Positions 2,957 through 17,660 of a stretch of 58,254 nucleotides of DNA are shown one piece after another (the stretch's first letter is position 1; every line of letters begins with the position of its first letter). The notes under the pieces were generated by a model. The model did not search any database and was not told where the DNA came from. It worked only from the letters and a program-made list of their open reading frames with translations. The translations under genes and the position numbers were made by a program. Source of the stretch: Bacteroidota bacterium (GTDB lineage Bacteria > Bacteroidota > Bacteroidia > Bacteroidales > VadinHA17); assembly GCA_025350595.1 (NCBI GenBank), contig JANXXP010000391.1:1-58254 (forward strand). Direction: 5' to 3'.

Positions 2957-5900
2957 TTATACTTTAATCCCCATTACAAGAATATCATCAACCTGATCAA
3001 AGTTGCCTTTCCAATCAAAGAAAAATTTTGAAATAGCTCCCTTCTGCTCATCCATCGGTAACTTTGAGACCCGCTCAATAAGATTTTTTAATCTTGCAAT
3101 CTTCATTTTTTTACCATCAACACCGCCAAACTGATCGGGCAGACCATCTGAAAAAAGATAAACTGTATCACCTTTATTAAGGTAGTATTCCTGATCATCG
3201 AAGAATTTCTCAATAGCAGATTCACCACCTACGGATGATCTGTTACCTTTAATATAAAAAGGTTCACCAAGAACTATAATAACAGGCCGCATGGCAGATG
3301 CAAACCTCAAGTGGCGCGTCTTAGTATTAAACTCACAGACAACCATATCCATTCCATCATTCGAGACTCCTAATTCCTGATTTTGATTAAGGGTAGCAAA
3401 GATCTGTTTATCAAGAAGGCCCAGTATCCTGGAAGGTTTAGAAATTCTTTTTCTTGAAACGATATCCTGCAGAAGAGTAGAACCTATCATTGACATAAAT
3501 GCCCCTGGCACGCCATGTCCTGTTGAATCAGCACATACAATAACAAATTTATCATCCTCGAGTTTTTCGAACCAGTAGAAATCGCCGCTTACAATATCGC
3601 GGGGATGGAAAAGGACAAAAGCATCATTAAAGGATTCCTTTAGTTTATTAACATCAGGCAGGATACTCGATTGTATACGTTTGGCATAATTAATACTATC
3701 TGTAATTCCAATGTTCTGTAATTCAATCTCTTCTTTTTGTTTTATCACCACACTGGTTCTTAATTCAAGCTCTTTTTCAAGATATGCCTGAACCTTCTTC
3801 TGAGCTTTGTCTCTTTCTCTGATTATTAAAACCACAATTCCTGAGATACCGCCAATGCTAAGTAAAATGAACCACCACGTTTTATAGACCGGTTTTTTTA
3901 TGATAATATCAAATGTCACCGGAGTTTCCTGTGACAATCCTTCCTTGCTGACTGAAATAAGTTTGAACTTATAATTCCCGTCACTCAGACTATATTCTAC
4001 TTCTTTCTGGGTGCTCATCTTACTCCAGTTATTATCATAGTTTTCGAGAAAGGTACTATAGTATACTTTATCAGGTGCAGAGAAGTTAATACCTGAATAA
4101 AATACTCTGATGACATATTTCTTAAGATACGGGAGAGTATATAATGGTTGATATGGATAGACTACATCATTGATAGTTACATAGTTAATATTGTTTATAG
4201 GAACAACCTCATTCTTATTGTCCTTAATTCTGTCATATATTATTAATCCTTCTGTTGTTCCGATAAAGATTTTTCTGTCATCTGATTCAAACATTCCCCC
4301 TTCATTACAAATTCCACCTTTTGCAAAATCAGTCCCGAAAACACTCATTGTTTCTGTTTCAGGATTGAACCTTGAAAACCCTTTCTCATGACCTATCCAG
4401 ATATTTTTTTCAGCATCTGCAAGAATACTGTAACAGTAGTTTGACATCAGGTCGTTTGTCCTGTTAATTGCAATAACTGTGTCATTAAAGTATTTGAAAA
4501 CTCCATTGCCATTTGTGGCGACCCAGATTTCCCCATTTTTACTTTCAGAAAATGATAGAATTTTATTCTTGGTACTTCCACCCATTACGGCATTGCCGGC
4601 AATAGCAGTATCATGCTTATAGTCGATCCTATATAGTCTGTCGCTTTCAGTTCCGATATATGCGTAACCATCATGAGCAAGAAGTATTTTATTTATGCTG
4701 TTATGGGGAAGTCCATGATGATCTATATCAAATCTTTTCTTTTCCCTCTTAATATTCGTGCTATTTCTGTCGATGACAAAAACACCATTGGTCGTTGCCA
4801 GCCATATATTCCTGTCGTCCATCTCGATATCCTTAATATCATCGGCGCCTGAATCACCAGATCTGTGAAAAAGATTAACGGCTCCCGTATTGCTTCTGAC
4901 AAAGAGTCCGTTTCCCGATGTTCCAATCCACAGGTTTTTAAACTTATCAAGATGATAGCAGGTAATTTCTGACTTGCCTATCTGACCCGTAAGGTCTGTA
5001 TAAGAAATTGACTTCCCTAAGGATTGATCAAACAAATGAAAACCTGATGGTGTTCCCAGGATATATTTGTCGTTAAGGCTGTTTACATATATAATATTGT
5101 TTTCGACGGAATTTTTGCCGGGCTTGTAGTAAACAAAAGCATTTGATGATAGCATTGAAATACCTTCCCCTGAAAAACCGAACCAATAATTTCCCTCAAG
5201 ATCCTGAAAAACAGTTTTAATATTATTTGCGTTTAACCCAGACTTTAGATTATAACTGCGAACAGAATTTACAGATTCAAAATTATCAGAGAATTTAATC
5301 TGGATAGCCCCCGATCCGATTGTTGAAATCCACAGGTTATTACCTGAGTCCTCTGATATTGATTGAACATTAAGAGAGTCCCATCCTGGATGATCATGAA
5401 AACGTGTTAGAGAATTACCTTTATCTGAAACTTTCAATTGAAACAATCCATTGTCAGTTGTCCCGATGACAAATCTTGAACTGTCACTTGTCTGATGAAT
5501 TGCAGATATACTTGAATAATTAAATCCTTCCAGGGCACTCAAAACCTTCACGGAATCAGTTGCAAGTCTGCACATTAATAGATTTTCCTGGGTTCCGATG
5601 AGCAATAGTCCGTTCTTTGTAAAGAGCCCTGAAAACATTGTTGGATCAACTGAAAATGAGTACTTTTGTATCGCTTCAGGCTTAGCAGGGTTCACAGAAT
5701 AAACTGCCTTTCCCTGCTGGGGAACAATGTATATTAAACCATCAGGTCCCTCAAGAAGATCGCTGATGCTCTTTGTATTTGTGAGAGAAACTGCGATAAG
5801 CCTGTTATCCCTGACAAAAAAGACAGACCCGTCACTGCATCCGAACCATAATTTACCACTTTTGTCTTTCAGACTGACAGTTGGGTAGCGTGCTATAACT

Positions 5901-6139
5901 GAATCGGGATATTGAACAGTAAAAAAGTTAAAACCATCGAAACGTGATATCCCATTTACAGTTCCAACCCATAGAAATCCATCGGTCGACTGGCTGATGG
6001 TATAAACAAAACCACTTGGAATATTGCTTTCAGTGTTATAATTTTTGAAATTATATGTCTGTCCTTTTAATACCGATGAAAATAACAATAAGCACCCTAT
6101 TATGCTGTTTGATATTTTCAAAGTTATATTAATTCTCAT
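2957..6139 (-). CDS. Beta-propeller sensor with Y_Y_Y domain and SpoIIE-type PP2C phosphatase
   Basis: A 1060-residue transmembrane sensor. Seen in order: signal peptide (1-26); many two-component-regulator propeller (Reg_prop) repeats with LWVGT, LWFG, LWIGT and IWIGH cores (about 30-640); a Y_Y_Y domain (about 680-748); one membrane segment (about 754-774); a coiled-coil linker (775-812); and a cytoplasmic SpoIIE/PP2C phosphatase (about 818-1060). The metal-binding aspartates are present: SGDFYW (851-856), ADSTGHG (870-876), SDG (997-999) and DD (1051-1052). The kinase module usually found in hybrid Reg_prop sensors is replaced by a Ser/Thr phosphatase. Such phosphatases often act on partner-switch proteins, but no anti-sigma or antagonist gene is nearby. 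It is the last gene of the surface operon, 12 nt after the 334-residue protein gene. An active enzyme is inferred from the intact residues. Confidence 0.9.
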   Translation of the reverse strand: MRINITLKISNSIIGCLLLFSSVLKGQTYNFKNYNTESNIPSGFVYTISQSTDGFLWVGTVNGISRFDGFNFFTVQYPDSVIARYPTVSLKDKSGKLWFGCSDGSVFFVRDNRLIAVSLTNTKSISDLLEGPDGLIYIVPQQGKAVYSVNPAKPEAIQKYSFSVDPTMFSGLFTKNGLLLIGTQENLLMCRLATDSVKVLSALEGFNYSSISAIHQTSDSSRFVIGTTDNGLFQLKVSDKGNSLTRFHDHPGWDSLNVQSISEDSGNNLWISTIGSGAIQIKFSDNFESVNSVRSYNLKSGLNANNIKTVFQDLEGNYWFGFSGEGISMLSSNAFVYYKPGKNSVENNIIYVNSLNDKYILGTPSGFHLFDQSLGKSISYTDLTGQIGKSEITCYHLDKFKNLWIGTSGNGLFVRSNTGAVNLFHRSGDSGADDIKDIEMDDRNIWLATTNGVFVIDRNSTNIKREKKRFDIDHHGLPHNSINKILLAHDGYAYIGTESDRLYRIDYKHDTAIAGNAVMGGSTKNKILSFSESKNGEIWVATNGNGVFKYFNDTVIAINRTNDLMSNYCYSILADAEKNIWIGHEKGFSRFNPETETMSVFGTDFAKGGICNEGGMFESDDRKIFIGTTEGLIIYDRIKDNKNEVVPINNINYVTINDVVYPYQPLYTLPYLKKYVIRVFYSGINFSAPDKVYYSTFLENYDNNWSKMSTQKEVEYSLSDGNYKFKLISVSKEGLSQETPVTFDIIIKKPVYKTWWFILLSIGGISGIVVLIIRERDKAQKKVQAYLEKELELRTSVVIKQKEEIELQNIGITDSINYAKRIQSSILPDVNKLKESFNDAFVLFHPRDIVSGDFYWFEKLEDDKFVIVCADSTGHGVPGAFMSMIGSTLLQDIVSRKRISKPSRILGLLDKQIFATLNQNQELGVSNDGMDMVVCEFNTKTRHLRFASAMRPVIIVLGEPFYIKGNRSSVGGESAIEKFFDDQEYYLNKGDTVYLFSDGLPDQFGGVDGKKMKIARLKNLIERVSKLPMDEQKGAISKFFFDWKGNFDQVDDILVMGIKV

Positions 6140-6151
6140 GTCGGACTCTCC

Positions 6152-7156
6152 CTATTTTTTAGGCTTTACGGGTGTTATTTTTACTTTGGGGACATAAACA
6201 GGTATTCCTCCAATAGGCGCTGCATAAAATGGCATACCCTCGCCTTTCTGGTTTTTTGTTATAATGACAACATTGTTATTTTTCACCAAAGTCCCCTGCC
6301 TTTTAATAAACTGGAAGTCCAGTGAAGAATTCACTTCGTCAGGCAGAATGAGGATCTTGGAAATAGCCCAGTCATTTTCGTTTGAAATCGGAACTGAAAT
6401 ACCCTGTCTGGCTTTGGACACGACAAGTATCTGCCCGTCATTATCCCAGTCAAAGTTCGACTGCTCTACATAGATTACACCTGTATCAATATAAGGATAG
6501 ATATGTGATACGCTTTTAAAATCATTCCACATCCGGAAGTGGTATTTATAAGTATACGCGATCGCCCCTTCAATAAGAACATTATTATTAGGATCGCGGC
6601 TCAGAAAATACCTGAAAAGATTCCCGTCATCACCGGATATCCCTTCACAAACGATCTTAAAAATGTACATATTATATTTTTCACTATAATCACCTTCCTT
6701 AAGATTATAGGGCCCAAATGTATACCACTTATTGTCATATTTTGCTTCACTTCCAAAAACTTTGGAGGATAGCAAATTTCCACTTTTATACTTATCTCCA
6801 TTATAAATTCCCTGTGACTCAGTATTTTTTTCAGGATCCACACCCTTACCTCCATATACCGAGAACATTGTTTTTGTATTAAATTCTCCCTGAATCTCAT
6901 CGTTTTCGCCACCACAATCGGGGTCAAAAACTCTGATATAGATCTGCTGTTTGAAATCGCTTGGGATTGAGAAAAAGTAGGTTTGGAAAAAAGAGTCATC
7001 TCCCCAGGAATGTTTACCATCTTTTCCAAATGTCACAAGAAAAGGTATATTCTCATCTTTTCCCGGAACTGGTTGTGCCGATAATCTGGCACCTATTGTC
7101 AATCCGGACAATAAAATAAAAAGAAATATTCTGTATATGAGCTTATTCAATTTCAT
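6152..7156 (-). CDS. Uncharacterised secreted protein of T9SS surface operon
   Basis: A 334-residue protein with an N-terminal signal peptide (hydrophobic run about residues 8-27, ending near SAQP). The conserved-looking block VTFGKDGKHSWGDDSFFQTY is followed by YIRVFDPDCGG, then by SVYGG and by WYTFGPYN. I recall this arrangement from secreted or OmpA-associated Bacteroidota proteins, but I cannot name a characterised family. A lectin- or C2-like beta-sandwich is possible, since the acidic DPDCGGENDE segment could bind calcium. The tail is basic and Pro/Lys-rich (VKITPVKPKK). It lies 29 nt after the PD40/PKD gene and 12 nt before the phosphatase sensor, so it probably works at the cell surface with them. 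Function unknown. Confidence 0.8.
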   Translation of the reverse strand: MKLNKLIYRIFLFILLSGLTIGARLSAQPVPGKDENIPFLVTFGKDGKHSWGDDSFFQTYFFSIPSDFKQQIYIRVFDPDCGGENDEIQGEFNTKTMFSVYGGKGVDPEKNTESQGIYNGDKYKSGNLLSSKVFGSEAKYDNKWYTFGPYNLKEGDYSEKYNMYIFKIVCEGISGDDGNLFRYFLSRDPNNNVLIEGAIAYTYKYHFRMWNDFKSVSHIYPYIDTGVIYVEQSNFDWDNDGQILVVSKARQGISVPISNENDWAISKILILPDEVNSSLDFQFIKRQGTLVKNNNVVIITKNQKGEGMPFYAAPIGGIPVYVPKVKITPVKPKK

Positions 7157-7185
7157 TAATCATCAAAATTAGTCATTTAAAAGTA

Positions 7186-8622
7186 TCAGGGTTTAGGAGT
7201 TATAATAATATTTTTTGAGATACATGCTTCCCGGACAGAGCCCCCTGGTTCAGCTTCGGCTGTGACAATCAGCTGAATAGAATAGGTTCCGGCCTTTAAA
7301 TAAGTATGATCAATTCCCTTGCCGGTTCCGATTGATTCATCACCGAAGTTCCAGTAATACGAATTAATATTCCATCCCGGAAGGTTAGTTTTGTCGGCAC
7401 TCAGATTTATCTTCTGTCCCATATCCGTTTTATCAACGACAGTAATATAAGGTTGTTCGATCTCTTTAATCATAAGTGTATCAGACTTTTGATTACGCAA
7501 AACCTCTTTTGTAATCAGGTTAACAACATCGAGCTGAACAATATAAGTTCCGGGATTATCATAACAATGTTCCACCACTATTCCTGTAGACTTACTTCCA
7601 TCGCCAAACTTCCATTCATACCTGAAAGGCAAGGTATCTACGTTTAGTGCATTCTCTTCAACAAACCGGAAGCAAAAACTGTTTTCTACAAGAGTATCAC
7701 ATAAAGGTTTTCTGATTATAAGTGACTTAAATTCATAGATATCGTCACTTGTATTCCTGTTAGATGCAAGATAGCCTGTTTGAAGATTATCCTGGGCTAC
7801 AAAAGCAAAATCATCTGATGTTGAATTTATAGGGTCAGGCAGGTGTACCGGATCATCCCATTTACCTGAAGTAAATGTTGTGTAATAGATATCCATTCCC
7901 CCAAGGCCACCAGGGCGGGTAGAAGCAAAGTATAGTCTTCCTGAAGCGTGCATAAATGGATAATTTTCACTTTTAGGAGAATTTACCTTAGCACCCAGGT
8001 TTTGAGGTTCGCCCCATTCACCATTAATTAATTTACAATAATACAGATCCGAACCACCCTGTCCTCCGGGCATATCGGATGAAAAAAACAGAAGTTTACC
8101 ATCACTGCTGACAGATGGCATTGCAACATTATATGCTGCATTATTATATTTAAATGGACGAATTGAAGTAAGATCCATTCCGGAGCGATCGGCAATAAAA
8201 ATCCCATTATGGTTTTTATAGTTTTTATTCTTTGCAGCTTTTCCTGTTTCAACATCACTTGTAAAATATACAGTTTTGCCATCAGGTGCAATACAAAGTG
8301 CCCCATTGTTGAACTTTGAGCTTCTCTCGCTTAGTATTTCTTTCGGATTGCTCCATATCGCTGTATCTTTTTGTTCAACCTGGTAAATATTGTAGAGACG
8401 GCGCCCATCGAAGGAAGTCCTGTCTTTTAGCGCACTGAAGCGCCTGTTGGAACAAAAAATAATTCCATCCTTAATTATAACCGGAGAGATATCACTGAAT
8501 GACTCTTTGTTAAATGACATTCTTGTAATTTTATATATAGCAGGCTTCTGCGCTTCTGTCTGAGTCGTAAAAAGTGTCAAAAGTATGACAACCGTAATAA
8601 GATAGAATCTTCTATGCACCAT
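7186..8622 (-). CDS. PD40 beta-propeller and PKD-domain envelope protein (PorE-like, without OmpA domain)
   Basis: A 478-residue exported protein with a signal peptide at 1-24. The first part has PD40/WD40-like propeller strands: DGKTVYFTSD, DGKLLFFSSD and SGRLYFAST, the later ones followed by GG(Q/L)GG-D-(L/I)-YY. Two PKD domains follow: YEWKFGDGS with GTYIVQLDV (about 335-375), and YYWNFGDES with GTYSIQLIV (about 425-465). T9SS proteins of the PorE type pair a PD40 propeller with a C-terminal OmpA peptidoglycan-binding domain. Here the OmpA domain is absent and PKD domains take its place. It is 3 nt downstream of the porP/sprF-like gene, so the two are almost certainly co-translated. Confidence 0.88.
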   Translation of the reverse strand: MVHRRFYLITVVILLTLFTTQTEAQKPAIYKITRMSFNKESFSDISPVIIKDGIIFCSNRRFSALKDRTSFDGRRLYNIYQVEQKDTAIWSNPKEILSERSSKFNNGALCIAPDGKTVYFTSDVETGKAAKNKNYKNHNGIFIADRSGMDLTSIRPFKYNNAAYNVAMPSVSSDGKLLFFSSDMPGGQGGSDLYYCKLINGEWGEPQNLGAKVNSPKSENYPFMHASGRLYFASTRPGGLGGMDIYYTTFTSGKWDDPVHLPDPINSTSDDFAFVAQDNLQTGYLASNRNTSDDIYEFKSLIIRKPLCDTLVENSFCFRFVEENALNVDTLPFRYEWKFGDGSKSTGIVVEHCYDNPGTYIVQLDVVNLITKEVLRNQKSDTLMIKEIEQPYITVVDKTDMGQKINLSADKTNLPGWNINSYYWNFGDESIGTGKGIDHTYLKAGTYSIQLIVTAEAEPGGSVREACISKNIIITPKP

Positions 8623-8625
8623 AGA

Positions 8626-9618
8626 CTAAAAATACCTTGGATTAGCAGCACTAACCTTAGAGCCGAATTCATACCGTAAAATAAATTCACTTGATCCTCT
8701 TGAATTCAGATACTTCCTCCCTACTGGATTATCATATGAGAATCCAAACATAAACTGTGGATTCACCTGAACCTGAAGAATAGCCACAGCAACCTTTTCA
8801 GAGGTTCTCCATGAGCCACCGAGCCATAGCAGATCGCCTAAAATAAAATTACCATTTATATCAAACTGATTAAGTTTTTTGGTCTTTTGGAGGGAGTAAT
8901 CGACCAGAACTGATGGCTTAAATTTTAAAAACTGTGAAAATGTAATAAGCCCGCCTGCTGAAAAAACAAAATCATATTCGCTAAAACTGTGATAGGACTG
9001 AACTGAATTTGTCGGGGTTTTTCTATAGCTCAGGAATGTTGGTACTGAAACACCGGCAAAAAGTTTATCGCTGAAATAATATACTCCGGCACCAAAATTA
9101 GGAAGAACGTAAGGTTTATCATTTGTTGCGAATACCGGATCTCCTGAATCCGTGAGTAGAAGTCCTGAGTAGTTGGTATTTGACATATCTACTCCGCCTT
9201 TAAGTCCCAATGATAGTTTCCCATTCCCCATCCTTATATGATAGGCATAACTGCCATAAATACTCGTTGATTTCGTAAATCCGAATTGCATGAACTGAGC
9301 CATTATACCAAGTGCCACCTTGTCATTTTTCATTGGAGTGTGAAGGGAGAGTGATTGAATTACCGGAGCGCCTTTAATTCCCATCCATTGCATTCGGTAG
9401 GACATAAATGCGCTCAACGCACCTCGTGAACCGGTATATGCGGGATTGATCATCAGACCATTCTGAAGGTATTGACTATAAACAGGATAGCCTAGGCTGA
9501 TTCCGGTGGAATCTGGTACTGCCTGACCGGGCGCACCATTTAGAATAGACAGGAATAAAATGATAAAAATAATTTTTACTCTGTTAACCCTCCGAATATC
9601 AAAAGTTCCACTTTTCAA
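8626..9618 (-). CDS. PorP/SprF family type IX secretion outer-membrane protein
   Basis: A 330-residue outer-membrane beta-barrel with a signal peptide (about 1-32). The PorP/SprF signature is clear: YSQYLQNGLMINPAYTGSRG near residues 48-67, then SYRMQWMGIKGAP and repeated aromatic barrel strands. Members of this family act with the T9SS, often as the dedicated partner that holds a co-encoded type B (CHU_C/gliding-type) substrate at the cell surface, as SprF does for SprB. The gene for such a substrate lies directly upstream (12 nt gap), which fits that role. The PD40/PKD protein follows after 3 nt. Confidence 0.93.
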   Translation of the reverse strand: MKSGTFDIRRVNRVKIIFIILFLSILNGAPGQAVPDSTGISLGYPVYSQYLQNGLMINPAYTGSRGALSAFMSYRMQWMGIKGAPVIQSLSLHTPMKNDKVALGIMAQFMQFGFTKSTSIYGSYAYHIRMGNGKLSLGLKGGVDMSNTNYSGLLLTDSGDPVFATNDKPYVLPNFGAGVYYFSDKLFAGVSVPTFLSYRKTPTNSVQSYHSFSEYDFVFSAGGLITFSQFLKFKPSVLVDYSLQKTKKLNQFDINGNFILGDLLWLGGSWRTSEKVAVAILQVQVNPQFMFGFSYDNPVGRKYLNSRGSSEFILRYEFGSKVSAANPRYF

Positions 9619-9630
9619 AACTTCTCTGCT

Positions 9631-12600
9631 TTAGTATCTTTTTAATATTATAAAACCACTCCATTTTTTAAACGTCCCATTACCTTCCCTTAAAGGATCT
9701 GAAGTTATTTTCAGCAAGTAATAATATGTCCCTTCGGGAAGATCAATTCCGCTTGAATTTTTACCTGTCCAATACGTCCAGGTACTTTTATTGTTTGAAG
9801 TTGAAAATACTTCGGCTCCTGCACTATTAAGAATTTTAAGTTCAGCATATTGATGATCCAGATCCAACCCTCTTATAATTAACGAATCGTTAATATTATC
9901 TCCATTCGGAGAAAATCCCTGAGGTATTTCAATTGCTGATACATTGACGATTACCTGATCCTCATTTTTACAGGTACCGTTTGTTACTGTCCATAAAAAT
10001 GTGTTTTGAGGAGACAGATTCTGAACCGCTGAAGAAGGAGCTGATACATCGGTAAAGTCACCTGTTCCATTTACTATTGTCCATGCCCCTGTCTCCCATG
10101 CATTTAGCTTATGTGCTACCATATGGAGTATGTTGTCGAAAGAGTAAAGGGTAGTATCGGGCTTGGGTCCTGCATAAATGTTGTTTACTCTTTTATCGAA
10201 TTTTACCAGAACTGAATCTTTGCTTTTACATTGCCAGTTAACCTCTTCCCAAATAAATTTATGCGTAATGTTAGCTCCGGGAAATAATGAATCGATAGTG
10301 ACCGTAACCGAAGGATTGTTTGGGAATGGGATAATAGCAGCAGAAGGATAATACCAGGTACCTGTTCCGGCACTGGGAACAGCTTTAAGATTATACTTTG
10401 TTCCGCATGTATCAGCATCAGGACCTGCATTTGCTCTGGGAGTCTTGTAAACATCCGCCTTCCTGGTTCCTGCAAGAGATGTGGCAATACAATTGTTCTT
10501 ATCCTTAACCTCAAAAAGAGAATAGTTGAAGGTTGTCAGTGAAGTACCTGTGACAGGGGTAAACAGAATCGCAGGATCAGTTCCAGCTATGCCTGGTTTA
10601 GTTATCTGTGCGGAGTTCTCCTTAAAAATTAACTGCCATGGTGTTGCACCGGTGAGATGGATTCTCAGACTAATATTTGACCCTTCACATATAATTGTAT
10701 CTGCAGTGGATGTTATTGCACCTGCAGGTAATAAATCTATAGATATATTGAAAACTGCAGAAACATTTGTGCAGCAATCACTTGCGCCTGATTTTACAGT
10801 GCGTCTGTATTTCATCGGAACAAGCAGTGCAGGAGGTTGATAATCGCGAGTGGAATTGACCAGCGCTGCCGGCACCCATGTTGTACCATCAGGGCTCTGC
10901 TCCCACGAGTATGTGTAAGACCCTGCTCCGCCACCGCCTAAAGGATCTGTTCCGGTCAGGAGAGTTGGTACTGTATTATAGCATACTGTAGCTTTACCAG
11001 ATATTACATTGTTTGTAATCGCGGGAAGGACAGTAATTTTAACAGGTGTATTGGTTATATCAGTACAGAGACCGGATGTAACCAGTCGTTTATAGTAAAA
11101 TGTTCCTGCAACTAAAGTAGGAGGCTGGTAAGAAGCCAGGGTGTTTGTGCCCGGCGCGGCGTTATAAGAAGAGTTATCATTTGAAAATTTCCAGAGGTAA
11201 GCATAGTCACCCGGGATATTTGTTCCGCCTGTAGGAATAGTTCCTCTCAACAAGTGAGGAATTGCTCCGTTACAGATTGTGGTATCAGTAAGTCCGCCTG
11301 CAAGCAGTGAAATGATATTATTCAGAAGAGGTTTATGAACAATTACAGTGATTGATTTACTGATATCTGTACAGGCAGATGAGTTTACAATCCGCCTGTA
11401 AGCGGTTGTATCCGTTAATACTGGAGCTTGATAATTAATAAGCGATGCACCGGCTATAATTGCCCAGGTATGCGCTTTGGAACTGTCCTGCCATGAATAG
11501 CTATAAATTAGGTTTCCGTTTTGGGGAGTGGATCCGTTAATAATTGCCGGTGCTGATCCGGAACAGATTGTCTGATTCGCTAAGATTGTATTATTCGTTA
11601 TAACCGGATAATCTCTAAGAAGAACAGAAGCACTTGTCTTGGTACAAACATCATTTGAACCTGATAAGACAACCCGTCTGAAATTGTACTCATTCATGGG
11701 TACCCTCTGAGAAAGTTCAGTAGGGTCATAACCTGAACCGTTGCTTACTCCCGGTGCAGTACTCCAACCAGCTCCGTTTATATTACTTTCCCATTTAAAC
11801 CGATATGAGTTATCACCTCCGGTTAAAGCTGGGGGAGTTGTTGCTGTAAGGTTATTAAATGTTGTACCGAAACAGATATCCTGCGCGGGAGAAATTATAT
11901 TGTTATTACTGATAGTATCGAGTACTGTAATCTTAACAATAGCTGTAGAGTCAACACATCTGCCGGAAGTAACTGTACGTCTGTACCATGATGTAACTTT
12001 CAGTGCAGGAGGTGGAGTATATTGGTCAGCATTATATGTATTTGAAGGCAAATTGAACAAAATGTTATTCTGGCTCACCTGCCACCTGAACGAATAAGTA
12101 CCGTTTCCGTCCAGAAGTGTCGCTTTTGAAGTAAACGCAGGAGGATCCTGTGCAAAACAGATTGTATCAGAAGTTCCGACAATATTGTTTTTAATAAAAG
12201 GTTGAACAAGCACTTTAACCGGTTTGCTAAAATCAACAAGAGCCGGAGAGTTGCTATCTGTGACAACTCTTCTGAACCATGTAGTCTGAGTAAGTATCCC
12301 GGGTAGATAATTCGGATTAGTATTTACCCCTGATGCCGGAGCAAAACCAGAAGTTTCGGATGTTGTGCTGCTCTCCCATAAATAAGTATGAGGAGCTTTT
12401 CCGCCTACTGGTAATGTACCGGATATGGTTCCGAATGAAACATTTGAACAAATTGAATCAACCTGGTTACCGGTTACTTCCGAACGTATAGAGTTAAACA
12501 GGAATCCGTTAAGCTTTGGACTGAAAGCGTATTTAGTTTCCCCAAGCCCTTCAGAAGTAGTTCCTGGTCCTGGATTGCCAGAAACTAATTTGGTCGGCAC

Positions 12601-13872
12601 TTTAGCAGGTATTGAAGCTGCACCGGGAGCAGAGAACCAGATTAAACCACCACCACCTCCACCACCAAATCCATATGAATTACCAATGTTTATACCACCA
12701 TCTCCTCCTTTGACAGATATTTTTAGAGAATCGCTGGCAACATTTGAAAAACTTTGTGCAGAAATTGCTATTGAACCTCCTCCTCCTCCTCCTCCTGCCC
12801 CGGCATCTCCAAGTGCATTACCTGATACTGCGCCATTAGCTTTAAAAGAATTCCTGTTTCCGGAAATTGTATCAGCAATGATTATAACAATTCCACCCCC
12901 ATTACCACCTGAAGAGCCAGTCGATCCTACTGCATGTGTTGAAGCTCCTCCGCCGCCGCCTAGAAACAGTCCATCTAAAATATATGAAATTTTCACTGTG
13001 GAAGCTCCATTTATACTGGTATATGGCGTTCCGCACAGAAGAGGGCCAAAATTTATCTCTTCTCCCCCATCTCCTCCTTTTCCGCGGTTTCCGCCTCCAC
13101 CTCCGCCGGCATATTTACCATTTCCACCGCCTCCTCCTGTCAGGTTTGGTCCCATCCCCCTGGAATGAAGCGGATTTAGTAAAACCTTTGAGGCATCATA
13201 AGTTGCAACACCTTCTCCCTTATTCCCTGAATTTGTCCATGTATCCGGATATGACTCTTTGAAGTTGGCAGTAGAATTAACAGATACACATTCCCCAGCT
13301 CCAATTGCATCCTGTCCGCCATTTAATCCAGATCCTGAGACATCTATGTCTGAGTTTAGAGTTAATTTTCGTCCAACTATCATTGACAATACCCCTCCTA
13401 CTTTATCAGTACTATTCCACGATCTGGCAATAAGCTTCCCGATTACAGTTGCTGCATTATAATAGGGCACCCTAATAAGCTGAACATTTCCTTTTATACT
13501 AAAGGAATTCAGTATATTGTTTCTGAAGACTACTTTTTTTGTACCGGCATCTACAGATTGTACCAAAAGAAATTCATAACCGCCCGGTTTTCCAATAGTA
13601 TCCTGTAATGAAGTTCCATATGCAGGATTCTCATCGGTTTGTATTGTAATACCCTGCATCTGAATAAGCATAACAGTATCACCGGGAGATATTGAATCGA
13701 CTGTGTTTAAAGTTACATTATCCAAACCTGGTCCGATAGCATCAACGCGTCTGTAAACATTTACTATACCACTGATTTTTTTATCCTGAGAATAGACAGA
13801 AACTGCTAATCCTGAAAGAATTAACAAACATAGAATTACTCTCCTTATATAGCTATCAGACCTGCCAGTCAT
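9631..13872 (-). CDS. Large T9SS type B surface protein: polyglycine region, six Ig-like repeats, gliding-type sorting domain
   Basis: A 1413-residue secreted protein with signal peptide 1-29. Residues about 30-235 form a beta-rich head. Residues about 238-445 are extremely Gly-rich, with several runs of five to eight glycines. Six Ig-like repeats of 89-102 residues follow (about 468-556, 557-651, 652-753, 754-846, 847-948, 949-1045). Most have a Cys in a TIC-like motif near the start, a YxWE/YxW core, YRR(x)V, and a second Cys in SGxCTD near the end, suggesting one disulfide each. Two divergent domains lead to a type B sorting domain (about 1315-1413) with PQGFSPNGDNINDSL and LPEGTYYYLLKI. 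It probably crosses the outer membrane by the T9SS and stays on the surface with the downstream PorP/SprF protein. A role in adhesion, motility or ligand capture is inference. Confidence 0.92.
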   Translation of the reverse strand: MTGRSDSYIRRVILCLLILSGLAVSVYSQDKKISGIVNVYRRVDAIGPGLDNVTLNTVDSISPGDTVMLIQMQGITIQTDENPAYGTSLQDTIGKPGGYEFLLVQSVDAGTKKVVFRNNILNSFSIKGNVQLIRVPYYNAATVIGKLIARSWNSTDKVGGVLSMIVGRKLTLNSDIDVSGSGLNGGQDAIGAGECVSVNSTANFKESYPDTWTNSGNKGEGVATYDASKVLLNPLHSRGMGPNLTGGGGGNGKYAGGGGGGNRGKGGDGGEEINFGPLLCGTPYTSINGASTVKISYILDGLFLGGGGGASTHAVGSTGSSGGNGGGIVIIIADTISGNRNSFKANGAVSGNALGDAGAGGGGGGGSIAISAQSFSNVASDSLKISVKGGDGGINIGNSYGFGGGGGGGLIWFSAPGAASIPAKVPTKLVSGNPGPGTTSEGLGETKYAFSPKLNGFLFNSIRSEVTGNQVDSICSNVSFGTISGTLPVGGKAPHTYLWESSTTSETSGFAPASGVNTNPNYLPGILTQTTWFRRVVTDSNSPALVDFSKPVKVLVQPFIKNNIVGTSDTICFAQDPPAFTSKATLLDGNGTYSFRWQVSQNNILFNLPSNTYNADQYTPPPALKVTSWYRRTVTSGRCVDSTAIVKITVLDTISNNNIISPAQDICFGTTFNNLTATTPPALTGGDNSYRFKWESNINGAGWSTAPGVSNGSGYDPTELSQRVPMNEYNFRRVVLSGSNDVCTKTSASVLLRDYPVITNNTILANQTICSGSAPAIINGSTPQNGNLIYSYSWQDSSKAHTWAIIAGASLINYQAPVLTDTTAYRRIVNSSACTDISKSITVIVHKPLLNNIISLLAGGLTDTTICNGAIPHLLRGTIPTGGTNIPGDYAYLWKFSNDNSSYNAAPGTNTLASYQPPTLVAGTFYYKRLVTSGLCTDITNTPVKITVLPAITNNVISGKATVCYNTVPTLLTGTDPLGGGGAGSYTYSWEQSPDGTTWVPAALVNSTRDYQPPALLVPMKYRRTVKSGASDCCTNVSAVFNISIDLLPAGAITSTADTIICEGSNISLRIHLTGATPWQLIFKENSAQITKPGIAGTDPAILFTPVTGTSLTTFNYSLFEVKDKNNCIATSLAGTRKADVYKTPRANAGPDADTCGTKYNLKAVPSAGTGTWYYPSAAIIPFPNNPSVTVTIDSLFPGANITHKFIWEEVNWQCKSKDSVLVKFDKRVNNIYAGPKPDTTLYSFDNILHMVAHKLNAWETGAWTIVNGTGDFTDVSAPSSAVQNLSPQNTFLWTVTNGTCKNEDQVIVNVSAIEIPQGFSPNGDNINDSLIIRGLDLDHQYAELKILNSAGAEVFSTSNNKSTWTYWTGKNSSGIDLPEGTYYYLLKITSDPLREGNGTFKKWSGFIILKRY

Positions 13873-13964: not shown

Positions 13965-16900
13965 TTACCCTAATTTTTCGACTGTGTACATTAACGGCAA
14001 TTCAACATAAAAGACAGATCCTTTATCAGTCTCAGACTCAAACCAGATCCTTCCGTTTGCACTCTCAATATATCTTTTCACAATAGATAACCCCAACCCC
14101 ATCCCCGATGATTTTGTTGTAAAATTCGGTGTAAAAAGTTTTTTCTGCAGATCTGCAGGAATGCCCGACCCGTTATCATAAATTGAAATAATAATCTTAT
14201 CGCTTTTTACTTCCAGATTAATTTTCACAATACCTTCCCTTCCCTGAGGAATTGACTGTATCGCATTTTTAAACAGATTTGAAAAAGCTCCGTTAAGATG
14301 CTCCTTATCAGCATAAACAATGACCTTATTTTCAGATGGCCAATGAACTGAAAAGGTTACATTGTCGGTGTTTTTAAAGAGTTCAAGAGTTATCTGGATT
14401 TGTTCCAGAAGATTAACTTCTCCCGGATTGGTTACGGGCATTTTGGCAAATGCTGAAAAAGCTGATGCAATTGATGAAAGGTTATCAATATATTCAATCT
14501 GGTTTTCGGTAAACCGTTCTATCGATTTATCAAATCCTGGAGCTTTATCTTTCCATGATTTAAACAATTGCTGAACATTAAGTTTCATAGGAGTAAGAGG
14601 ATTTTTAATTTCATGTGCAATCTGTTTTGCCATCTCTCTCCACGCATATTCACGTTCAGAATTTGCCAGTTTGTGTGTGCTTTCCTCAATCTCATCAACC
14701 ATCCTGTTATACTGCTTTACAAGTTCGCCAATTTCGTCATTTCCCCTGTACGACAATTGCTTGCTTTTCTTACCGACCTCAACAGAAGCAAGTCCTTCAC
14801 TAAGCATAGACAGCGGGGAGGTAAGCCATCCGCTTATAAATACTGCCATACCCATAGTAATAAGAACCAGAAGAAGTGTAAAATTAATAACTGCAACTAC
14901 CAGGTTTGAAATCTCCTTTGCCAGAACACTTTGCATTCTGAAATACGGCAGGTTAAGGTAAGCAGTAACTTTATTTTCAGTGTTAAAAAAAGGAACATAG
15001 GCAGATAAATACTCGAGATTTCCGATTTTTTCTTTCTGATAATATTCGCTTTTCGCAAGATGTTTTAAATTATTTAAGGCAACATTGTTAATGCGCTGGC
15101 TGACCAGGTCCCTGTCAAAAATCTCCTGCCGTGATGTAGCTATCAGGAATCCATTTAGATCATAAAGATTTATGTCGGTATTAAAAACATTTGAAAGTTT
15201 TACAAGAAGATCATTTAAAGACAAATATCCATTATTTTTCCAATCAGATGTCAGGTGCTTTTCCATTGAAAGCTTGCTATCCAGTTCAAGGTATACTGAG
15301 TTAAGCTTTTCTTTAATGTTTTCATTATGTTTTGACTGATACTGACTTATTGTTAAAAAAGCTATAACAATCCCGATTAGCAGAAAGGAAAATAACAGTA
15401 TGCCGATGAAAGACATTTGTAACTTCTGGCGCAGATTGAAAATATTCAAACTGTGTAACACTGGTCTTTTTATGAGCATTATGAGCACATTGGTCAGAAG
15501 CAGTATAAAGCCAAAAAGATATGCAAAAGAGATCAGAATATCACCAGCAGCTAAATCAGGTCGCGATATAATAACTGTAGAGTTGCCATTTTTATACAGA
15601 ACATGCTTATACCCGTCAATGTTAAAAATCCTGTAATCAGAATTTTTATCAACATAGTCAGCATCAGTTTTATCAAAAGGAAATTCACCAGTTCGCAGTA
15701 CCATCTCTCCATTTATATATTTTGAAAAGGAGTAATCCTTCAGGCCCGCATATCCGTGGAACTTTTTATCAAGAAGCAGTTCAGAATATCCCGGTTCGAA
15801 TACATTAACATCACTGTATAGTTCAATGAATAAGCCATTTGAATGATTATTTTTACTCCTGTAATACAACTTTCCAAGATAATACGACCTTCCACCCTGA
15901 TTATCAATAAAATAGAAATCAGTCCCTGTCAGTTTATGCCCGTTTCTTCGTATCCGGTTATCAAAAAACTTAAAGCAGTTTTCAGAAAACTCATTTCCGG
16001 AACCAATCTGCAACGGATCATCATTCCGGCATAATACTATGTTAAAATTAAAATTACCCCAATATCCGTTAAAATAGGTTTCGCGGAGATATCCTGAAAT
16101 TTTATCAAAATACCTTTCAAAATTTTCACTTTCCATTAATCTTTTCAAGGCTGTATCACCAGAAATCGCGGGCCATGAATCAAGTAGAAGATGTTCAGCT
16201 TCAGGGTCAATTTCAGTAGAAAATGAGACAGCCTGAATTTTAAGATTCTCTGTTGTCTTTTTATCTGAGAGAATTGTAATAAACCAAAGTGAATAAATTC
16301 CCGCAAGAAGAGAAAAGATGACTGTCATATTAAATAATCCAATCCCTCTTTTTATTGATATCCATATACTGCAGATCAAAATGAAATAAAATGCGGCTAA
16401 AGGTATTAACGTTGAAACAGCGTTAGAGTAAAAAATTACCGGAACAACCAGGGAAGTGAGTATAGAATAGACAACAGTTATATTTCTGTACTGCTTTACT
16501 CTTTGAAATACTTTCAGGAGAAAAAAGACGGGAACTAGTAAAAGCAGTATAGCAGCCGTGAACCCCGTAATACTGAAGATACTCAATTCCAATACTTTAT
16601 ATGTTTCAAAATTAATGTTGGATATTGAGATGAGCTTACTGAAAACAAAATGAAAAAGAGTAAATAATGCTGCTCCTGCACTCAATAATCCGGCAAGAAA
16701 GAAATAGTCTTTTATTGTTTTATCTTCTTCATCTATCTCAAAGTTATAGTACCTGTAAAAAATATTTGAAAAAACTGCTGCAAGAAAACTGAGTAAGACC
16801 AGATGACCCAGGGATGGGATAAATTTGTTTAAAGTAAACCTGTATGGTGAGAACAGTTCTGTTTGAAAAAGGACTGTTGGCTTCCCTGTTAATAGAAAAA

Positions 16901-17660
16901 GAGCATAAATGAAGGAAAAAATTAAAAGAGCAGAACCAACTGCGAGCCGGTCTCTCGCTTTCCCTGCCAATAGTTTCGCAAGTTCTACAGTTAAGAGAAT
17001 AATCAGGATGAATGCAAGAGTCCAAAAACATAAGGGGATAAAAATAAAATAAGTGTTCTCTCTGATTTTCGGAAACAAAAGCGAAAAAAGAAAATCACCA
17101 TTATTATTAAAAACCTGAAATTCTGAGGCATTCTTTACTTTACTTAATCCAACGTTCTCCAGTATTCCATAATCCTTCTCGAAACCACTTTTGATAATAT
17201 CATTTTTAAAACTATAATCAGTTCTAAGCCTGAGCAGGCCAACTATTTTTTCATTACCAGCCTGTATTGTTTTCGGAAGAAACCAGCCATTCTGAAGAAA
17301 AACCAATGGCTTAGTAAAAAGTGAATCTATAAATATTGTTGGAACATTAAACTCATTATCAGAATAATAAGCAAGTTTATTGTCAAGATATTCAAGTATT
17401 GTAATTCTGTTCTGATCAGCTACTGAAAAAAGATTATTTTCAGAATTCGATCCATGATGATTCTCCCTGGCAAGAATTGGCTTCATCTCATTCAAACAAT
17501 CCTCCAGAATTTTCTCTTTAGCATGGAGCCTGTTATTGAACATCCGGGTTCTGAAACGATATTCAAAATCACTGAAATAAACTGATTCGGCTGCCAGGGC
17601 AATAAGAATTACTAAAACAGTCAGGCTGATAAGAAATATCCTATAATGCTTTATTCTCAT
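13965..17660 (-). CDS. Giant orphan NtrY-like sensor histidine kinase
   Basis: A 1231-residue membrane histidine kinase, far longer than ordinary NtrY proteins. A membrane segment at 8-24 is followed by an extracytoplasmic region (about 25-203), roughly eight segments between 204 and 464, a second large external region (about 465-707), two segments (708-731, 749-771), a third external region (772-918) and a last segment (919-943). Then come HAMP (about 944-998), the HisKA box HEIKNPLTP with His1016, and HATPase_c with the N box (LFKNAIQS), DNGSGIP and GMGLGLSIV. All catalytic motifs look intact. No response regulator is adjacent. It lies 17 nt after rlmH in the same direction, so it is probably co-transcribed with it. 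The signal sensed is unknown. Confidence 0.9.
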   Translation of the reverse strand: MRIKHYRIFLISLTVLVILIALAAESVYFSDFEYRFRTRMFNNRLHAKEKILEDCLNEMKPILARENHHGSNSENNLFSVADQNRITILEYLDNKLAYYSDNEFNVPTIFIDSLFTKPLVFLQNGWFLPKTIQAGNEKIVGLLRLRTDYSFKNDIIKSGFEKDYGILENVGLSKVKNASEFQVFNNNGDFLFSLLFPKIRENTYFIFIPLCFWTLAFILIILLTVELAKLLAGKARDRLAVGSALLIFSFIYALFLLTGKPTVLFQTELFSPYRFTLNKFIPSLGHLVLLSFLAAVFSNIFYRYYNFEIDEEDKTIKDYFFLAGLLSAGAALFTLFHFVFSKLISISNINFETYKVLELSIFSITGFTAAILLLLVPVFFLLKVFQRVKQYRNITVVYSILTSLVVPVIFYSNAVSTLIPLAAFYFILICSIWISIKRGIGLFNMTVIFSLLAGIYSLWFITILSDKKTTENLKIQAVSFSTEIDPEAEHLLLDSWPAISGDTALKRLMESENFERYFDKISGYLRETYFNGYWGNFNFNIVLCRNDDPLQIGSGNEFSENCFKFFDNRIRRNGHKLTGTDFYFIDNQGGRSYYLGKLYYRSKNNHSNGLFIELYSDVNVFEPGYSELLLDKKFHGYAGLKDYSFSKYINGEMVLRTGEFPFDKTDADYVDKNSDYRIFNIDGYKHVLYKNGNSTVIISRPDLAAGDILISFAYLFGFILLLTNVLIMLIKRPVLHSLNIFNLRQKLQMSFIGILLFSFLLIGIVIAFLTISQYQSKHNENIKEKLNSVYLELDSKLSMEKHLTSDWKNNGYLSLNDLLVKLSNVFNTDINLYDLNGFLIATSRQEIFDRDLVSQRINNVALNNLKHLAKSEYYQKEKIGNLEYLSAYVPFFNTENKVTAYLNLPYFRMQSVLAKEISNLVVAVINFTLLLVLITMGMAVFISGWLTSPLSMLSEGLASVEVGKKSKQLSYRGNDEIGELVKQYNRMVDEIEESTHKLANSEREYAWREMAKQIAHEIKNPLTPMKLNVQQLFKSWKDKAPGFDKSIERFTENQIEYIDNLSSIASAFSAFAKMPVTNPGEVNLLEQIQITLELFKNTDNVTFSVHWPSENKVIVYADKEHLNGAFSNLFKNAIQSIPQGREGIVKINLEVKSDKIIISIYDNGSGIPADLQKKLFTPNFTTKSSGMGLGLSIVKRYIESANGRIWFESETDKGSVFYVELPLMYTVEKLG

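Follow-up and report, generated by a model that had tools for sequence, protein, structure and literature searches.

A five-gene locus in which type IX secretion system (T9SS) surface genes are joined to a membrane-spanning phosphatase sensor was identified in a 58,254-nucleotide stretch of DNA (contig JANXXP010000391.1, positions 1 to 58,254; referred to here as the window) from a Bacteroidota bacterium of the VadinHA17 lineage. The genes encode a T9SS substrate, a PorP/SprF protein, a PorE-like protein with PD40 and PKD domains, an undescribed secreted protein (designated here as UNK) and a sensor combining Reg_prop propellers with a SpoIIE phosphatase. The five genes recur as a real, conserved unit, of which the first three belong to the known type B-PorP-PorE kind. 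That the type B-PorP-PorE surface complex is coupled through UNK to the trans-envelope phosphatase as one unit is, in our judgement, an evenly balanced proposition, and the conserved gene set suggests a means by which the cell may monitor the state of its surface structure.

Recurrence of the five-gene set

Two sets of loci were compared with the window. The close set consisted of the best 80 of 201 confirmed UNK stretches from GTDB genome contigs. For the class-wide set, an UNK profile built on 40 sequences was searched in 395 genomes sampled evenly across the class, 49 of which were found to encode UNK, and 48 of the 53 non-own UNK matches were retained (those of genomes G235, G315, G179, G109 and G062 were left out). 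The locus of Breznakibacter xylanolyticus appears to sit in both sets (L079 and L111). Among 60 relatives, UNK was present in 37.

The full five-gene set was observed in 61 of the 80 close loci, including that of the cultured B. xylanolyticus DSM 6779 (L079), and in 51 of the 54 with at least 5 kb of upstream and at least 1 kb of downstream sequence. Class-wide, it was present in 14 of 48 loci, representing eight families; recurrence in both sets indicates that the association is more than chance. Within the close loci, a propeller gene lies behind UNK in 73 of 77 judged cases (66 with SpoIIE in the same open reading frame, ORF), a PD40/PKD gene precedes UNK in 75/79 and a sorting domain is encoded upstream in 68/68. 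The initial annotation had proposed a single five-gene module, an idea that would fail if the sensor and UNK genes were rarely found beside porP/sprF. Among close relatives they are not, PorP being upstream in 71/72 loci, and the module stands as a conserved unit, with the amendment that the tightest unit class-wide is formed by UNK and the sensor. A propeller gene directly follows UNK in 40/48 class-wide loci, covering 15 of 17 families; the gene immediately before UNK is PD40/PKD in 27/48, and a sorting domain is located upstream in 17/43. The gap between UNK and the sensor is at most 30 nucleotides in 68/73 close and 36/40 class-wide loci, with 17 of those 40 overlapping by 1 or 4 nucleotides.

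Sequence identity to the window across the 14 full class-wide loci (medians of matches covering over half of the query) was 45% for both UNK and the phosphatase, 34% for PorP, 31% for the PD40 protein and 25% for the sensor ectodomain (matched in 12/14), and the whole substrate was matched in 0/14. This ranking indicates that the cargo varies and that UNK and the phosphatase vary least. The high conservation of a secreted-looking UNK, compared with that of the sensor ectodomain, would also fit an export checkpoint, in which UNK or unexported substrate builds up in the periplasm upon a block of the T9SS or PorP; the sensor would then report back to adjust synthesis, monitoring secretion and not the finished structure. 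The gene layout, suggestive of a single transcript, agrees with such a checkpoint, which is nevertheless improbable given the lineages that carry the UNK-sensor pair without a linked substrate.

Behind the UNK-sensor genes of L118 (family f75), L126 and L136 (f39), a gene for a tetratricopeptide repeat (TPR) protein was observed, secreted-looking by eye, with PorP genes absent before them; loci of families f33 and f71 contain genes of a size similar to that of this TPR protein.

The Reg_prop-SpoIIE sensor and its lineage

The sensor comprises Reg_prop propellers and a Y_Y_Y-like domain, followed by one membrane segment with a linker and a SpoIIE phosphatase (signal peptides and this membrane segment were assigned by eye). 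For Reg_prop and SpoIIE, the matches (90.7 and 65.2 bits, respectively) exceed the Pfam cut-offs, and the Y_Y_Y domain is a sub-threshold call (24.2 bits, cut-off 26.6). Five aspartates of the phosphatase (residues 853, 871, 998, 1051 and 1052) are retained in 46/46 UNK-linked sensors, and particular ones among the phosphatase aspartates presumably bind metal. The phosphatase thus has an intact residue set and is predicted to be active. The nearest solved relatives are the hybrid two-component system (HTCS) structure 4a2l for residues 20-754 (E 7.7e-37) and 6k4e for residues 784-1058 (E 1.5e-29), the latter being the phosphatase domain of SiaA (PMC7647112). In L132, L134 and L138, the UNK-linked sensor is split into two ORFs, representing either real decay or sequencing error.

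To place these sensors among their relatives, 46 UNK-free paralogues were used as a control, i.e. the 40 best-scoring of the listed long-frame paralogues (from 20 UNK-positive genomes), three from the window's genome, two from the loci of the two sets and a second one from L218. PorP was encoded within four genes and on the same strand for 12/35 UNK-linked class-wide sensors versus 1/46 paralogues (Fisher p 1e-4); the corresponding values within four genes were 15/35 versus 0/46 for PD40/PKD and 12/35 versus 2/46 for a sorting domain, some of the compared neighbourhoods stopping at contig ends. In an unrooted maximum-likelihood tree, from which two long-branch paralogues were left out, a single branch separated 47 UNK-linked sensors from 44 paralogues (bootstrap 100; SH-like approximate likelihood ratio test, SH-aLRT, 99), indicating that UNK marks one sensor lineage. 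A quick tree including both long-branch paralogues recovered the same split (SH-aLRT 99), apart from the UNK-bearing L114.

Because it is UNK, and not PorP, that marks this lineage, and because the UNK-sensor pair is conserved more widely than the five-gene set, it could be argued that an independent envelope-signalling pair joined a type B-PorP-PorE operon by chance and was kept there by selection for compactness. The presence of the full set in eight families and a PorP association far above that of the paralogous sensors make this origin highly doubtful.

Predicted signalling output

The initial annotation had proposed that the sensor reports into the cell by partner switching, which gained support from the class-wide loci, with SiaC emerging as the likely partner. 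In L122, L130, L134, L141, L148 and L150, a SiaC gene, above the Pfam cut-off in every case, follows the sensor directly or one gene later; all of these loci except L148 are full loci (5 of 14). In L134, L148 and L150, a SiaB-like gene is located between the sensor and SiaC, and for L148 and L150 Pfam assigns it to DUF6272. We take DUF6272 to be SiaB-like, which fits the place of the gene, although no such relationship emerged from a PDB sequence search. A Ser or Thr occupies the position of the published phosphorylation site, T68, in 24/24 SiaC proteins compared. In the characterised system, SiaA and SiaB act on T68 of SiaC (PMC7647112), and Pseudomonas aeruginosa SiaC activates the cyclase SiaD (PMC8457831). 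The output of the sensor is likely to be SiaABC-type partner switching.

The window's genome encodes 13 SpoIIE proteins and eight SiaC proteins, one of the latter being the possible partner, with no SiaC gene adjoining the sensor. No GGDEF match was obtained in this genome (98.2% complete), indicating that SiaC does not act via a diguanylate cyclase here. As for an RsbU-type switch, in which a STAS antagonist and an RsbW-type kinase would be the partners, along the lines of the STAS or anti-sigma proteins pointed to in the initial annotation, HATPase_c_2 gave eight matches in the genome, four above the cut-off, and none on the window's contig.

Among the paralogous propeller-SpoIIE sensors, ten loci (L197, L201, L208, L211, L213, L217, L221, L226, L228 and L229) have SiaC at position +3, preceded by a SiaB-like gene at +2. 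For six of them, the +1 gene was inspected and encodes a protein of ~270-340 amino acids, mostly lipoprotein-like by eye.

The surface-complex proteins and UNK

The pairing of a substrate with a PorP/SprF protein, recognised as known in the initial annotation, extends to the third gene. The type B assignment of the substrate is based on its CHU_C sorting domain, as the match to the TIGR04131 'type B sorting' profile (30.4 bits) is under the cut-off of 35. The substrate further exhibits a signal peptide, a glycine-rich N-terminal region and repeats (Ig_7, 17.6 bits, below cut-off), and a model of its N-terminal 440 amino acids shows a beta-rich domain that includes a small barrel. The glycine-rich region (positions 12553-13872) gave an AgmC_N match of 156.5 bits, below the cut-off of 275. 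The PorP/SprF protein, encoded directly downstream of the substrate, matched both PorP_SprF (PF11751, 191 bits) and TIGR03519 (196.6 bits); inspection of its sequence revealed zero cysteines, hence no SprF-type twin-cysteine C-terminal tail.

The third protein consists of a PD40 propeller and two PKD domains (PD40 and PKD_4 above cut-off) and aligns to PorE over the propeller region of the latter (NCBIfam, 182.5 bits, cut-off 600). Its description in the initial annotation as a PD40/PKD protein without an OmpA domain was borne out, with no OmpA or TPR match in Pfam or NCBIfam, and is amended here to PorE-like; OmpA was found in 13 of 29 scanned PD40 proteins of this kind (the window protein and 28 of the 33 listed).

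UNK returned no family match in Pfam or NCBIfam. It has a signal peptide by eye, and two beta domains were obtained in its structure model. DxDxDG-type motifs often bind calcium, and in the DWDNDG motif of UNK, residues D236, D238, D240 and G241 are invariant in 40 sequences. In a purely descriptive comparison across 47 loci, the divergence of UNK tracked that of the periplasmic half of the sensor (rho 0.55) more closely than that of the cytoplasmic half (rho 0.36).

Outside the class (L159-L168), UNK occurs as the N-terminal domain of PKD-array proteins of ~1000-1650 amino acids, and is thus fused with PKD on one chain. Together with the PD40/PKD gene directly before UNK in over half of the class-wide loci, these fusions suggest that UNK may contact its PorE-like partner. 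Genes neighbouring the UNK-PKD-array genes encode HAMP histidine kinases (L159, L166) and REC-SpoIIE proteins (L161, L166), as well as a FecR/LysM protein and a guanylate cyclase in L159.

Proposed mechanism and its evaluation

In the mechanism that we propose, the T9SS would export the type B substrate, which would be loaded onto PorP in the outer membrane, where the PorE-like PD40/PKD protein would hold PorP at its periplasmic face. UNK, once secreted into the periplasm, would work with both the sensor propellers and the PorE-like protein, such that occupancy, load, ligand state or assembly failure of the surface complex could alter the dimer state of the sensor and thereby switch its cytoplasmic SpoIIE phosphatase. 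The phosphatase would remove phosphate from a phosphoprotein of the SiaC type, against the action of a SiaB-type kinase, and SiaC would then bind a target that is not a diguanylate cyclase. In its broadest form, i.e. a class-wide, undescribed outside-in device in which a T9SS-built structure, held by PorP and the PorE-like protein, is read mechanically or allosterically through UNK by the propeller sensor, with SiaC switching independent of cyclic di-GMP, the proposal is put forward tentatively, at somewhat short of an even chance.

A number of observations weigh against a coupled device. The close loci are those of near relatives, and class-wide PorP was encoded upstream in only 15 of the 45 loci judged. 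Eight of the 48 class-wide UNK loci have no adjoining propeller gene, and several families have the UNK-sensor pair in neighbourhoods devoid of PorP, a PorE-like protein and a substrate, which indicates that linkage to a surface complex is not required for the sensor to work. The presence of PorP in all 49 UNK-positive genomes is uninformative because PorP is near-universal (387/395 genomes). The PorE-like protein of the window has no OmpA match. As regards the output, neither SiaC nor a SiaB-like gene was found behind the sensor in the window or the 80 close loci, some of whose contigs end early, and SiaC is equally common beside paralogues (11/46) and UNK-linked sensors (6/35; p 0.58), indicating that SiaC partners such sensors in general and is not specific to the module.

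The main weakness among these, the occurrence of UNK and the sensor away from PorP in many families, fits co-regulation without physical contact with either PorP or the substrate, whereby the sensor, with UNK as periplasmic co-receptor, would detect an outside ligand (e.g. a glycan, as HTCS propellers do) and would share the operon since the surface protein is made in the same circumstances. The frequent position of a PD40/PKD gene directly before UNK class-wide and the UNK-PKD-array fusions elsewhere speak for contact with the PorE-like partner, and mere co-regulation is considered rather unlikely.

T9SS regulators named in the available portions of the literature are PorX, PorY and SigP. The locus described here places a signalling protein inside a T9SS cargo operon, conserved across families, alongside an unnamed conserved protein family. 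If the proposed link is physical, T9SS surface complexes would act not only as anchors but also as sensors, and SiaC would become a testable partner for the Reg_prop-SpoIIE proteins of the class, here in a GGDEF-free genome. As far as the literature searched extends, no other T9SS cargo complex is known to pass a signal into the cell, and this one would be the first to do so; the cultured carrier B. xylanolyticus DSM 6779 makes the system testable.

Gene organisation within the window

The five genes, which the initial annotation had placed on the minus strand with small gaps, were confirmed by their ORF coordinates (positions 2957-13872); from the sensor to the substrate gene, the gaps are 12, 29, 3 and 12 nucleotides (Table 1). 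Such short junctions suggest one transcript. Most of the domains initially named (Reg_prop, SpoIIE, PorP_SprF and PD40/PKD) were upheld at profile cut-offs, the exceptions being Y_Y_Y and TIGR04131, which are sub-threshold. Further upstream, an NtrY-like histidine kinase, not counted in the module, was matched in 41/80 close loci and in 0/14 class-wide full loci. On the other side, an ORF at positions 2430-2951 (173 amino acids, no family match, lipoprotein-like by eye) is convergent with the sensor gene and 5 nucleotides from it; in many close relatives, an ORF of about this size occupies a comparable place on the opposite strand.

Table 1. Genes and sequence features of the five-gene locus and its upstream neighbour
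Feature	Positions	Strand	Basis or remark
Sensor gene	2957-6139	minus	ORF, 1060 amino acids
SpoIIE (PP2C) phosphatase domain of sensor	2963-3556	minus	Pfam match
UNK gene	6152-7156	minus	ORF, 334 amino acids
DWDNDG (DxDxDG motif), UNK residues 236-241	6434-6451	minus	Invariant D236, D238, D240 and G241 (40 sequences)
PorE-like PD40/PKD gene	7186-8622	minus	ORF, 478 amino acids
PorP/SprF gene	8626-9618	minus	ORF, 330 amino acids, TTG start
T9SS substrate gene	9631-13872	minus	ORF, 1413 amino acids
CHU_C sorting domain, substrate residues 1314-1392	9697-9933	minus	62.4 bits, over cut-off
NtrY-like histidine kinase gene	13965-17660	minus	92 nucleotides upstream of substrate gene

Comparison with known systems

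Type B substrates are known to pair with PorP/SprF carriers, and in Porphyromonas gingivalis PorE binds PorP, giving a PorE-PorP-type B complex; in Flavobacterium johnsoniae, six porP-like genes adjoin porE-like genes (PMC9143113). Five F. johnsoniae operons encode a PorE homologue together with a type B substrate and the SprF-like carrier of that substrate, and their products are thought to form static, wall-anchored complexes (PMC12618676). Like the PG1035-PorP-PorE system of P. gingivalis and these operons, the window encodes a type B substrate, a PorP/SprF protein and a PorE-like propeller protein, and the OmpA peptidoglycan anchor is found in relatives of the window's PD40 protein. The window differs in the addition of UNK and the Reg_prop-SpoIIE sensor, and its PorE-like protein has two PKD domains and shows no OmpA or TPR. 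The available portions of these published accounts (PMC9143113, PMC12618676) make no mention of a sensor in PorE-type operons, nor were UNK, a SpoIIE sensor or a link to SiaC found as additions to the type B-PorP-PorE set in the accessible parts of the literature searched.

With the SprB/SprF gliding pair, the window shares a type B substrate and a PorP/SprF-like carrier. SprF is linked to GldK via a twin-cysteine tail (PMC12635249), whereas the window's PorP has no such tail for GldK and is accompanied by a PorE-like gene, as in the supposedly static complexes. The resemblance to PorZ is weak, as the window propellers scored 51.3 bits with the NCBIfam equivalog profile, whose cut-off is 260; furthermore, the window sensor carries a phosphatase and gave no match to a T9SS sorting domain.

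The sensor itself shares its Reg_prop ectodomain, Y_Y_Y-like domain and membrane segment with the HTCS hybrid sensors (4a2l, 3v9f and 3ott), but its output is a SpoIIE phosphatase only, with no histidine kinase or response regulator matched. With the SiaABC(D) system of P. aeruginosa, it has in common the SpoIIE/PP2C output of a membrane sensor, and in some lineages SiaC and a SiaB-like DUF6272 protein are encoded behind it, with Ser or Thr at the T68 site. It differs from that system by its propeller ectodomain, its linkage to T9SS surface genes and the absence of GGDEF, which would leave SiaC with an output other than that of the SiaD type.

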